A stretch of 45,600 nt of DNA from Thermoplasmata archaeon (GTDB lineage Archaea > Thermoplasmatota > DTKX01 > VGTL01). The notes under the pieces were generated by a model. It ran no database searches. It saw only the letters and a list, made by a program, of their open reading frames with translations, and was not told where the DNA came from. Positions 647 to 35,123 of the stretch are shown in pieces (position 1 is the stretch's first letter; the number at the start of each line of letters is the position of its first letter). The stretch is from assembly GCA_038851035.1 (NCBI GenBank), contig JAWCLH010000024.1, positions 1 to 45,600 of the forward strand, read 5' to 3'. The position numbers and the translations under genes are program-made.

Positions 647-1198
647 CTACCGGGGAATCGACGGAAATGGAGGCTGGGTTGGGGCCGGGGATTGCGGAGG
701 AGAGGGTGAAGGAGGTGAGTTCTGTAACTGGGGCGGATACTGGGGCGCAGGAGCCTGCGGCGCGGGGCAGGAGGAGGGGCTGGTGGGATAGGACTGGGGG
801 GATTGTGAATAGTAATAGGGGTAATAACACTGAGGCGGGTACTGGGCCTGCTGGACTGTAGACTGGGCCGGGGGCGGGCTCCAGGCCTGCTGGGGCGTCT
901 GCTGTCTCCGGGACTGCTCGAGCCAGACCTTCCAGATGTCCTTTGGATACAGCTTCGGGTCGTAGGAGAGGCCCGGGAGGGGCACGCTGCGCAGCCTCGC
1001 ATGGTTGGTGAGGCATACGATACTGCTGATCAGACCGGGGCCCACCACAAGAAGGAAAGGCGGCAGGAAGATTCCCAGCACGGCCATCGCTGCGGTCAGA
1101 CAGATTCCTGCCATCCCGCACGCTCTATTAAACTTGCCCAGCATCTGCTGCTTCCGGGATATCGGAGGCGGCGGCGGCACGTACCAGCTGTTCATCAT
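647..1198 (-). CDS. small membrane protein with Pro/Gln/Tyr-rich tail
   Basis: About 183 residues. A short Pro-rich N-terminus (YVPPPPP) is followed by two hydrophobic segments, roughly residues 25-45 and 47-65, so a two-span hairpin is likely. A short region follows (PGLSYDPKLYPKD) and then a long tail made of Pro, Gln, Tyr and Ser with runs such as CYYPYYYSQSPQSYP. I chose the ATG at 1198 over upstream GTG codons because GGTGAGG lies just in front of it; the next ATG at 1195 is equally possible. I recognise no family. The tail composition resembles low-complexity interaction tails. The promoter carries an 18-bp element shared with the cadherin-like gene ending at 31697. Real expression is likely, function unknown. 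Confidence 0.7.
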   Translation of the reverse strand: MMNSWYVPPPPPISRKQQMLGKFNRACGMAGICLTAAMAVLGIFLPPFLLVVGPGLISSIVCLTNHARLRSVPLPGLSYDPKLYPKDIWKVWLEQSRRQQTPQQAWSPPPAQSTVQQAQYPPQCYYPYYYSQSPQSYPTSPSSCPAPQAPAPQYPPQLQNSPPSPSPPQSPAPTQPPFPSIPR

Positions 1199-1237: not shown

Positions 1238-1264
1238 TATTTAAGAAGCGCGTGGTAGGTACCA
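1238..1264 (-). promoter_or_regulatory. TATA box plus 18-bp shared upstream element
   Basis: Read on the minus strand, TGGTACCTACCACGCGCT (1264-1247) lies directly upstream of the TATA-like CTTCTTAAATA (1248-1238). The start codon at 1198 is about 49 bases from the element. The same 18 bases recur at 35106-35123 before another membrane-protein gene. TGGTA and TACCA form an inverted repeat around two central bases, which suits a dimeric regulator. Confidence 0.65.
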
Positions 1265-30408: not shown

Positions 30409-31026
30409 ATGCTCCTCAGACAGTTCAAGGAGGGCGTCATGGCCAATTTTACGTATCTCATTGCGGACGAGGACTCGGGCCGGGGGGTCGTGATTGACCC
30501 TACTGCCGGGACCCTCTCGAAGGTCATGCGCATGGTCGAAAGCGAGGGGCTTAGAATCGAACTCGTCCTCATCACCCACTCCCACCCCGACCATACCTCA
30601 GGACTCAAGCAGCTGCTCGCGGAGACGGGAGCGAGGGTTGGCGCGCACAGGGGCGCTGGTATAAAAAAGGACCTCGCGCTCGATGATGGGAGTGCGCTCG
30701 AGGTCGGGGGACTAAGAATCAGGGTCATCCACACCCCCGGCCACTCACGCGACAGCGTCTGTTACCTCATCGACGGAAAGCTTTTCACCGGCGACACGCT
30801 GTTCGTCGGCGAGTGCGGAAGGACGGACATCCCCGGGGGTGACTCTGGGGCACTCTACGACAGCCTGTTCGGGAAGCTTCTCAAGCTGCCGGACGAGGTC
30901 GAGGTCTACCCGGGCCACGACTACGGCCCGAGGCCAACCTCCTCGCTAGGTCAGGAGCGCAGGACCAATTACGTTCTAGAGCCGAGGTCTAAAGAAGAAT
31001 TCATTGAGTTCATGGCAGAGGGCTGA
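30409..31026 (+). CDS. MBL-fold hydrolase, glyoxalase II / ETHE1-like
   Basis: 205 residues. The metal-binding motif HSHPDH (57-62, HxHxDH) is followed by HTPGHS, then GDTLFVGECGRTDIPGGDS with the metal-bridging Asp, then VYPGHDYGPRPTSSLGQER. The GRTDxxGG and YPGHDY segments are typical of the ETHE1-type persulfide dioxygenases and related hydroxyacylglutathione hydrolases. Archaea usually lack glutathione, so a persulfide or other thioester substrate is more likely than classic glyoxalase II. No rhodanese domain is fused. It stands alone, with its own promoter. Confidence 0.85.
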   Translation: MLLRQFKEGVMANFTYLIADEDSGRGVVIDPTAGTLSKVMRMVESEGLRIELVLITHSHPDHTSGLKQLLAETGARVGAHRGAGIKKDLALDDGSALEVGGLRIRVIHTPGHSRDSVCYLIDGKLFTGDTLFVGECGRTDIPGGDSGALYDSLFGKLLKLPDEVEVYPGHDYGPRPTSSLGQERRTNYVLEPRSKEEFIEFMAEG

Positions 31027-31696: not shown

Positions 31697-34600
31697 CTAC
31701 TCTCCAGCGGAGATCCGCTCGAGAAGTGAGAGCGCAACCGCCTCCGCCTTTTTAGCGAGGTTTCGCGCCCTGTTGTAGTCCATTCTGTATGAGGCGGCCA
31801 TTGCCTCCGCCAGAAGCCTCTCGCACTCCCGGAGCTCGAGACCGGCGGCCTTCCCAGCGCGAATCGCCTCTCTGGCATCGAGAATCGCGGCCCTCATAGC
31901 GTCCTTCGTGACGGCGCCGTCCTCCAGCGGCCTGAGGTTCCTGAAGAAACCGACGGGAATTCCCTCCCCATTCTCTCCATCCGGCGCGGGTTCCGGCACG
32001 GGCTCCGCCTCGGGCGGGTCCCGACCCGATTCCCTCCCGCCGGCAGAATATCCGGAGCCGCCGTTGGCAATCAATGGGTAACTCCTTGCACTCGCAGGCT
32101 GCAAAGCGTTGACTTCCCCGAGCCGCCCCCCGGCCGCGCTGCCCGGATGGAATGGGACTGTTGGGGACGCCGATGCTGCGGGTGGAAATGGGGGATACGC
32201 GCAGGGGGAGGTGACGGGAGGAGCCACGGGGCTCTGGATTAGGTGAAAGTCATTCGCTTGGGTGGGGGAAGTGGGAAGTGCGGTGGCCGGACCCGTGGGT
32301 GGTGAGAGCGAATGGAGCGGCCTGAGAGCGGGGTCTTGCGGAAGGTGCGAAGGGCTGGTGGCTGATGGGGGCGGCATGTCGGCCCCCGCCTCGTTGGCCC
32401 TAGGCGCGCCGGATGACTCCGCCGACGGCGTGAGCGGGAGCGAATCGCGTGAGTGCGCAGGGAGTTGCGACGCGCCTTCCCTGGCTCCGCCTCTACGCTT
32501 CCTGCGCACCGCGAGCGCCGCTGCACAAACCGCTAGGGCACTCCCCGCGGCAGCAAAAAGGAGGGTCGGCCAGAATCCAGAGAGCACATCACGAAGCCCG
32601 CCGGAATTCGATGCCCGTTCTACGCTCACGGTGACGGACGCCGTCGCCGCGAGCTCCCCGTCAGACACCTCGAGAACTATTAAGTGTTTGCCGGGCCCGA
32701 GCCTAGCCTCCATCGAGGCTCCGCGCCCGAGAACGGTTCTTCCCTCCCTCCATGTGTAGGTCAAGACGTCCCCGGCATCGGGGTCGACCGCGCTCCCGAT
32801 GAAGGTGATTCTATCGCCCTCCATGAAACGGCTCTCATTGCCCGGAGCCACGATGGTGACGCTCACTGGTGGGTCGTTCACGTTCTCGACAACTATCGTC
32901 AGCGTGCCCGAGGCCTCGGCTCCCTCCCTGTCGCGCACCAGAACTCGGACCCTGTGAATTCCGACGTCCTCGTTGCCCGGAACCCACCTCAGAACCCCCG
33001 TTGAGGAGTCCAGCTCGACGAGTCTGGAGGTCGTGGAGAAGGTCAGGGAGTCACCGGGGTCGACGTCGTACGCCTCAAGCACGTACTCCACCTCCTCCCC
33101 CTGCTTGACCGTCAGCTCCCGGCCGTCCTCGACGACCGGCGGGTCGTTAACGTTTTGGACGACGAGCAGGCAGGGACGGGTGGCGAGCTCACCCACGCTG
33201 TCCGAGACGGAGAACTTAAGAATGTGCTCTCCGACGTGGGAGTTCTCGAAAAAGAAGCTGAGCTCGCCCGTCGCGGGGTCGGCCGAGAGGCCCTCGATGT
33301 CGCTCTCCACAGAGTAGCTCAGCGAGTCTCCGGCGTCAATGTCCTCAGCGACGATCCGGTACTCGAAAAGCTCGTCCTCGAGGGCCTCCAGACGCTCGGG
33401 GCACTCGAGCTCTGGGGGGTCGTTGCGGTTCTCCACGGTGAGGTTGAAGGAAGCGCTCGAGGAGGCGCCCTTCGTGTCCTCCACGGATATCGTGACAAGA
33501 TACCTTCCCACCTGCTCATTCGTCGGTGTGAACACGATGGCGCCAGAGACGGGGTCGATGTCGAATAGGGGCGAGTCGTCGGAGAAGCTCAGGTTGTAGC
33601 TCGGGTCGTCGACGTCGTGGGCCCGGACCGCGAGGGAGAACTGGAGGTCCTCGGGTGCGATCTGATCCCTGATATTGGATACCGTCGGAGGGTCGTTCAC
33701 GGGTAGGACGGTGGCGTTGAAGAACAGGACCGCTGTGAGTCCCGATGAATCCGTCGCCCTGACCGCGAACTCCCTTGTTCCGAACCAGTTCAAGTAGGGC
33801 GAGCGAAAGTCGAGCGTGTGGCCGTCGGCGCCGAGCTCGGCCGTTATCCTCCCGTCCTCGGGCGAGACGACGAGCTCGTACCCCAGCCGCTTGTCGCGGT
33901 CGTCGGTGGCGTAGTCGTCAAGGTCGAGGAGCGCCGGGGCGTCGGTGTCCTCGTCGAAGCACACCGCGCCGGGAGGGACGGGCCGGAACTCCGGCGGCCG
34001 ATCGAAGTCGAACTCCGCGCGGTTCACCGCGACCACGCCACCTGTCTTCGAGGCCATGCACAGGACCACCTCGGCCACCATCCCGGAGCCCGCAAAGGAG
34101 TCGATCAGAGCCTGGGCCGGAGGCCTGAGGAAATCGTCACCGATGACCACGGTGCCTCTGAGCTCGCCCGCCATTTGGTACTCGACAATTCCATCGGCGC
34201 CTATATCTACCGAGAGGTCTGTGGGCCAGACGGGGGAGGAGCCGGTCACGGTGAGCTCGACGAGCTCCGTCTCCACTCCACAATATATCAACCCATAAGG
34301 TCCCATCACGAGAATATTGACCATTCCCTCGCTGTCGACGCATCCCTGGGCACCGGCCTGAATCGCACGCGAGACGGAGTGGTACTCAAAGTCCGCGCCC
34401 TCGTATTCCACGCTCCCGACGCACTCCCACGAGCCTGAGCGGTAGAGATAGACGGAGGCCTCGGTCCAGTCCAGAAGGAGGTCGAAGCCTGTGCCAACCC
34501 ACCTCACCCTGAGCCCCGAAACACTCGCCTCCGTGATTTTGAATCTGAAGAGCTGGTAGGGGCTGCCGGGGCCATAAGTGATGGTGGTGTGGCCGACGCC

Positions 34601-35050
34601 GTCCTCGTAAGAGAGGTCGGCGCAGGCCGCCTGTGGAATCACCTGGGACTGGAACGATGACGGGGGACTCTTCGGCGAGGCCTCCTTCGTCGCCCCTTCG
34701 TAGGCCCTGTTGCCCGCTCCGGAGGGATTCGTCCTCCGGTCGCTCGGGGGAGGCAGGGCGGAGCGGCCCTCGAGCTCGAGCGAGGCTTTGAGAACCCTCG
34801 CCGGCACTGGAGCGGATATCCTGAATGAAGTGTCGGAGCCCCCCGAGAATGGAAACGTGATGACTGTGCGAGAGGAAACCGCGCCCCCGATTTCGCCTGA
34901 TGGCTCGCCTGAGGGCGGCCCGGCCCCATCTCCCTCGGTCTGACCCGTTTCTGGGATACTGCCCGTAACTCCCGCCGCTCCAGCGGCGGCCCAAACGTTC
35001 GAGAGCGCAAAGGCGAAAAGCATCACGGCTGCCTTCACTTTGCCGTCCAT
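31697..35050 (-). CDS. cadherin-like single-pass surface protein with cytoplasmic helical domain
   Basis: 1117 residues. Signal peptide (VKAAVMLFAFALSNVWAAAG). A beta-rich N-terminal region is followed by four or five tandem cadherin/dystroglycan-type repeats, each ending in NVNDPPV or a variant (VLPVNDPPTV, VENRNDPPEL, VQNVNDPPVV, VENVNDPPVS). A PKD/REJ-like domain comes next (GSAVDPDAGDVLTYTW). One membrane span (LLFAAAGSALAVCAAALAV) is followed by RRKRRGG, placing the remainder in the cytoplasm. That part is about 180 residues of Pro/Ser-rich linker ending in a helical domain (DAMRAAILDAREAIRAGKAA through NRARNLAKKAEAVALSLLE). The ATG has GGGTGGG upstream. The promoter contains the 18-bp shared element. 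The receptor-like topology is inferred from this order. Confidence 0.85.
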   Translation of the reverse strand: MDGKVKAAVMLFAFALSNVWAAAGAAGVTGSIPETGQTEGDGAGPPSGEPSGEIGGAVSSRTVITFPFSGGSDTSFRISAPVPARVLKASLELEGRSALPPPSDRRTNPSGAGNRAYEGATKEASPKSPPSSFQSQVIPQAACADLSYEDGVGHTTITYGPGSPYQLFRFKITEASVSGLRVRWVGTGFDLLLDWTEASVYLYRSGSWECVGSVEYEGADFEYHSVSRAIQAGAQGCVDSEGMVNILVMGPYGLIYCGVETELVELTVTGSSPVWPTDLSVDIGADGIVEYQMAGELRGTVVIGDDFLRPPAQALIDSFAGSGMVAEVVLCMASKTGGVVAVNRAEFDFDRPPEFRPVPPGAVCFDEDTDAPALLDLDDYATDDRDKRLGYELVVSPEDGRITAELGADGHTLDFRSPYLNWFGTREFAVRATDSSGLTAVLFFNATVLPVNDPPTVSNIRDQIAPEDLQFSLAVRAHDVDDPSYNLSFSDDSPLFDIDPVSGAIVFTPTNEQVGRYLVTISVEDTKGASSSASFNLTVENRNDPPELECPERLEALEDELFEYRIVAEDIDAGDSLSYSVESDIEGLSADPATGELSFFFENSHVGEHILKFSVSDSVGELATRPCLLVVQNVNDPPVVEDGRELTVKQGEEVEYVLEAYDVDPGDSLTFSTTSRLVELDSSTGVLRWVPGNEDVGIHRVRVLVRDREGAEASGTLTIVVENVNDPPVSVTIVAPGNESRFMEGDRITFIGSAVDPDAGDVLTYTWREGRTVLGRGASMEARLGPGKHLIVLEVSDGELAATASVTVSVERASNSGGLRDVLSGFWPTLLFAAAGSALAVCAAALAVRRKRRGGAREGASQLPAHSRDSLPLTPSAESSGAPRANEAGADMPPPSATSPSHLPQDPALRPLHSLSPPTGPATALPTSPTQANDFHLIQSPVAPPVTSPCAYPPFPPAASASPTVPFHPGSAAGGRLGEVNALQPASARSYPLIANGGSGYSAGGRESGRDPPEAEPVPEPAPDGENGEGIPVGFFRNLRPLEDGAVTKDAMRAAILDAREAIRAGKAAGLELRECERLLAEAMAASYRMDYNRARNLAKKAEAVALSLLERISAGE

Positions 35051-35095: not shown

Positions 35096-35123
35096 GTTTA
35101 TTAAGAGCGCGTGGTAGGTACCA
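35096..35123 (-). promoter_or_regulatory. TATA box plus 18-bp shared upstream element, second copy
   Basis: TGGTACCTACCACGCGCT (35123-35106 on the minus strand) directly precedes the TATA-like TCTTAATAAAC, about 56 bases before the ATG at 35050. The 18 bases are identical to 1247-1264, and the spacing to the box and start codon is nearly the same (49 bases there). Confidence 0.65.

Follow-up and report, generated by a model that had tools for sequence, protein, structure and literature searches.

A short palindromic element lying just upstream of the TATA box of two genes in a Thermoplasmata archaeon very probably serves as the place where a single regulator protein docks to control about a dozen scattered pilus and surface genes. 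It is a real and well-conserved regulon element, new in its sequence and target set but known in kind. Sequence establishes the element itself, its composite geometry and its targets, and also that orthologous promoters keep it and that it is confined to one family. On balance, we consider it probable that the element is a regulator site, bound most likely by a homodimer, at 11 promoters at least, and that the bound protein activates by contacting TFB and/or TBP.

Anatomy and genomic distribution of the element

The window (the whole stretch of DNA analysed, 45,600 nucleotides) comes from a genome of 2,687,448 bases (~2.69 Mb; G000), which was compared with MAG M_DeepCast_200m_m1_298 (VGTL01; G001), from a sister genus and the only other member of the family among 390 genomes of the phylum; L- and C-numbers below are locus labels for stretches of G000 or G001. 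A first-pass annotation of the window had reported an exact 18-bp match, AGCGCGTGGTAGGTACCA, and both copies are indeed present at 1247-1264 and 35106-35123, contain the inverted repeat TGGTA/TACCA that it described, and point toward minus-strand genes. Read on the minus strand, each consists of TGGTACCTACCA, a 7-bp spacer starting CGCGCT, a TATA box and a gene. From the window and an alignment of 30 sites, the core of copy 1 is placed at 1253..1264, followed by the spacer CGCGCTT (1246..1252), of which CGC is conserved, and the TATA box CTTAAATA (1238..1245); the ATG at 1198, 49 bases from the copy, opens a gene for a small membrane protein with an N-terminal PPPPP and no Pfam or NCBIfam family (647..1198, minus strand). 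Copy 2 has its core at 35112..35123, the spacer CGCGCTC at 35105..35111 and the TATA box TTAATAAA at 35097..35104, with the ATG 56 bases away at 35050; its gene (31697..35050, minus strand) encodes a surface protein of 1117 aa that combines Ig/PKD/cadherin-like domains with a single C-terminal membrane helix and a Pro-rich tail. The TATA-like boxes, the distances to the start codons and the Shine-Dalgarno-type sites of the two genes (GGTGAGG and GGGTGG) thus all stand as first described. Divergent to copy 1 lies a metallo-beta-lactamase-type gene (1331-2254, by Pfam) with its own TATA box near 1299, and a second gene of this type, judged by eye, occupies 30409-31026.

The 18-mer itself is not the conserved unit. 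Allowing up to three mismatches, no third match to it was found in the window (shuffled mean 0.01), nor any further match with up to two mismatches in the rest of the genome; a three-mismatch search of G000 and G001 together returned many extra matches, in many of which TGGTAGGTACCA was intact. The idea of a shared promoter element was sound, and reaches far outside the window, the conserved unit being a 12-bp core, TGGTA-SS-TACCA, behind which CGC usually stands; the original 18-mer is this core and CGC plus three bases found at the window pair only. As just these two of the ten G000 sites share the full 18-mer, its last three bases look like coincidence.

Thirty sites (10 from G000, 20 from G001) align without gaps, in the order core, CGC (weaker), four free bases and an 8-bp TATA box, which begins exactly 7 bp beyond the core in 30/30 sites, some of them admitted to the alignment partly for a TATA box behind the core. 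The same geometry fits all eight exact copies in G000 and all 16 copies of TGGTASSTACCA in G001, where the sites carry an extra AAA on the far side of the core. On that side, long tandem arrays of low complexity, of the GCAAGGC/GCAAGG type, border many G001 sites (for example in L044, L046, L047 and L056). A variant site, TGGTCAGTACCA (L114:4077-4088), is flanked on either side by TATA-like boxes within a strongly AT-rich intergenic region and may serve divergent promoters; behind it is a PKD/Ig surface protein with a caspase-like N-terminal stretch, recognised by eye (L114:4120-7794).

Exact copies of the 12-mer number eight in G000 and 14 in G001 (expected 0.22 and 0.19), and all 36 one-mismatch words combined occur at only six and seven places, respectively, two TGGTACGTACCA places in G001 scoring on both strands. 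Across the phylum, TGGTASSTACCA has eight copies in G000, 16 in G001 and at most two in any of the 388 other genomes, and a reversed control pattern gave none in either G000 or G001. From these counts, exact, one-mismatch and phylum-wide, the element is a sharp, family-restricted feature. It was absent from T2SSE genes of same-class genomes outside the family; in viruses, a search for core, CGC and TATA box returned no matches, and none of 13 matches to TGGTACCTACCACGC was followed at the proper spacing by a convincing TATA box. The 12-mer string appeared in the literature only in unrelated mentions.

Target genes and their orthologues in the sister genus

At 10 of the 11 confident G000 promoters the G001 orthologue carries the site in the same place. 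The one exception is the first window gene (647..1198), for which a homologue was sought in G001 and none was found. The second window gene (31697..35050) corresponds to L050, with 46.6% identity over 1059 aligned residues in a full local alignment, of which BLAST had aligned the C-terminus alone. The remaining pairs, G000 before G001, are a pilin-like Big_1 protein (L037/L056, 72%), a T2SSE operon (L038/L097, 70%), a DUF7285-like protein (L041/L044, 41%; the next gene, DUF7286-like, is also homologous), a TctA-OB protein (L042/L048, 52%), a lamin-tail protein (L043/L068), an OB-HD nuclease (L064/L049, 67%) in a conserved gene order that takes in a divergent M50 protease, a zinc-ribbon protein (L065/L047) followed in both genomes by S19e and then by the same three genes, an OB membrane protein (L083/L054) with conserved gene order, and a surface protein (G000:C2:6059/L055, 51% over 983 aa). 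Weaker sites of the same geometry precede G000:C15:63145, a paralogue of the window surface protein, and the PKD surface protein G000:C29:27576.

The targets comprise T2SSE/T2SSF and pilin-like operons, Ig/PKD/lamin-tail proteins, a TctA/OB-fold protein, the OB-HD nuclease and a zinc-ribbon/ribosomal operon, and the genes for the T2SSE ATPase and the T2SSF platform share one operon with the site. DUF7285 and DUF7286 are families found as neighbours of haloarchaeal pilus-like loci; the matches to them are weak and fall below Pfam cut-offs. These predicted functions point to a type IV pilus-like machine together with surface proteins as the shared theme. The description of the targets as membrane proteins with Pro-rich tails, drawn from the window pair, does not generalise, the wider set being pilus machinery and surface genes with some OB-fold, nuclease and translation-linked genes. 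Outside the pilus and surface theme, and to that extent against a purely surface-directed regulon, lie OB-HD, the zinc-ribbon/ribosomal operon, acylphosphatases and toxin-antitoxin-like genes of G001. Three acylphosphatase-like genes stand behind the element in G001 (L059:329-1156, L072:3691-3924 and L171, near 2252-2910), one assigned by Pfam and two by eye, and two of them have near-identical N-termini. Also behind the element in G001 are two toxin-antitoxin-like pairs: a DUF433 gene and its neighbour (L052/L091:544-1325), and an RHH-like gene with a PIN-like one, the latter recognised by eye (L057/L095:7873-8638).

A predicted activator and the rival explanations

A palindromic core, together with one symmetric double substitution (TGGTCATGACCA, carried by the T2SSE promoter of G001), points to a dimeric protein binder, and the placement of the site upstream of BRE and TATA box at rigid spacing suggests activation rather than repression, a reading that draws on position and spacing only. 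Under the proposed mechanism, each half-site TGGTA would be read by one subunit of a homodimer, which would sit next to the BRE, always on one face of the DNA and 7 bp before the TATA box. The bound protein would then most probably contact TFB and/or TBP and recruit them, turning on the pilus and surface genes together; the fixed spacing over 30 promoters fits direct TFB/TBP contact. A weak BRE would favour recruitment of TFB, the prediction of the TFB-RF1 type. RA at -6,-5 was found at 1/10 element promoters against 24/51 other promoters in G000 and at 5/20 against 6/31 in G001, and a control flank on the downstream side of the TATA box showed as large a difference as the BRE region; the BRE region of element promoters is less AT-rich than that of other promoters, and so is the control flank. 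Candidates for the regulator were also considered: the RHH gene of G001 that carries a site at its own promoter (L057) has no homologue in G000, and a search of the RHH family gave no clear family-specific regulator candidate.

The same site and regulon could instead serve a repressor, which when bound would cover the BRE and block TFB/TBP until freed by an inducing signal. The spacer overlies the BRE position, so that a dimer on the site could get in the way of TFB; position by itself fits either reading, and archaeal repressors can bind inside the promoter (PMC5512572). Steric blocking needs no strictly fixed spacing, yet 30 promoters show it, and the dual regulators characterised so far with sites in front of BRE/TATA act from there as activators (TrmBL1/Tgr, PMC4158304), leaving repression an unlikely reading, albeit one that merits serious thought. 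That the element is itself a core-promoter element, a different BRE read directly by an alternative TFB with no separate regulator, is very improbable: it does lie beside the BRE position at constant spacing, with the conserved CGC falling in the BRE region, but its core, a 12-bp palindrome, stands 7 bp off the TATA box and beyond the usual BRE, and the presence of a single TFB gene in each of G000 and G001 (two TFIIB repeats in one gene) largely excludes it.

Multiple near-identical copies per genome might also be expected of a dispersed repeat, the end of a mobile element or a recent duplication of a promoter segment. Yet the shared part is confined to core, CGC and TATA box, and the flanks beyond this composite are at background (upstream identity in G000 26.6%, against 26.4% expected by composition), which excludes a repeat to the point where we give it hardly any credence; in two genera, sites also occupy matching positions ahead of orthologous genes, and no exact G000 copy lies within a gene. 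Indeed, a genome scan for scatter inside genes, the check that accompanied the original observation, found that each of the eight exact G000 copies precedes a TATA box with a start codon behind it, and the accompanying expectation of conservation at orthologous promoters was likewise borne out. A chance match, for which low-order arithmetic alone speaks and which had been judged improbable from the outset, is of negligible probability given Poisson P values for the core copies of about 1e-10 in G000 and 1e-21 in G001, enrichment in this family alone among 390 genomes, and orthologous conservation.

Known archaeal systems and the inverted centre

The usual binding place of archaeal activators is upstream of the BRE (PMC5512572, PMC4158304), and those acting immediately upstream of BRE/TATA include TrmBL1/Tgr (PMC4158304), EarA (PMC5512572), GvpE (PMC4390858) and TFB-RF1 (PMC5937170), with the ups motif also placed upstream of the core promoter (PMC5817253); placement of this type is seen at 30/30 aligned sites. 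The TFB-RF1 motif of Thermococcales (TCTGAANTTCAGA; PMC5937170) is, like the element, a short palindrome that several promoters carry in front of BRE/TATA with the distance conserved, and TFB-RF1 is a proposed dimer that recruits TFB (PMC5937170). It differs in its known regulator and in a far smaller target set (two operons described); a weak BRE was shown there (PMC5937170). Its sequence, TCTG-N5-CAGA, does not match the consensus TGGTA-SS-TACCA. EarA sites at the Methanococcus fla operon (PMC5512572) are likewise found directly before the BRE, where they turn on an operon for a surface filament, but as four 6-bp sites at one operon rather than a single 12-bp palindrome at each of a dozen dispersed promoters. 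The ups-pilus hexanucleotide of Sulfolobus, A(N)TTTC, resembles the element in lying upstream of the core promoter of pilus and other genes, at -39 to -44, where it is essential for activity (PMC5817253); unlike the element, it is a non-palindromic 6-mer at 214 genes with a link to the UV response, and the two share no sequence similarity. The upstream activating sequence of haloarchaeal GvpE similarly has two half-sites adjoining the BRE and a presumed dimer, which contacts TBP/TFB and for which close distance is essential (PMC4390858), whereas its sites are two 8-nt sequences with a 4-nt spacer, at gas-vesicle genes only.

Only the central two bases break the symmetry of the core. In the direction of the TATA box they are CC in 8/10 G000 sites, whilst in G001 they are GG in 17/20 and CC in 0/20 (Fisher P = 2e-5 over the 30 aligned sites), and six orthologous promoters differ as CC versus GG between the two genomes. 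As TGGTACCTACCA is the reverse complement of TGGTAGGTACCA, the site has in effect been flipped across the regulon. The centre should make no difference to a fully symmetric dimer, and an asymmetric contact or a shifted preferred centre is therefore implied. It is possible, though we hold this only tentatively, that the whole regulon coordinately inverted its asymmetric site relative to the promoter between sister genera, such that the contact of regulator and machinery was reoriented whilst the targets were kept.

To our knowledge, very little is known of how the surface and pili are controlled in uncultured archaea of this kind. The analysis defines a cis-element across the genome, lists its targets and describes a promoter geometry that is conserved, and with these in hand the regulator can be sought. 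The strict 7-bp spacing and the genus-inverted centre, taken together, constitute a natural experiment on the contact between an archaeal regulator and TFB/TBP.
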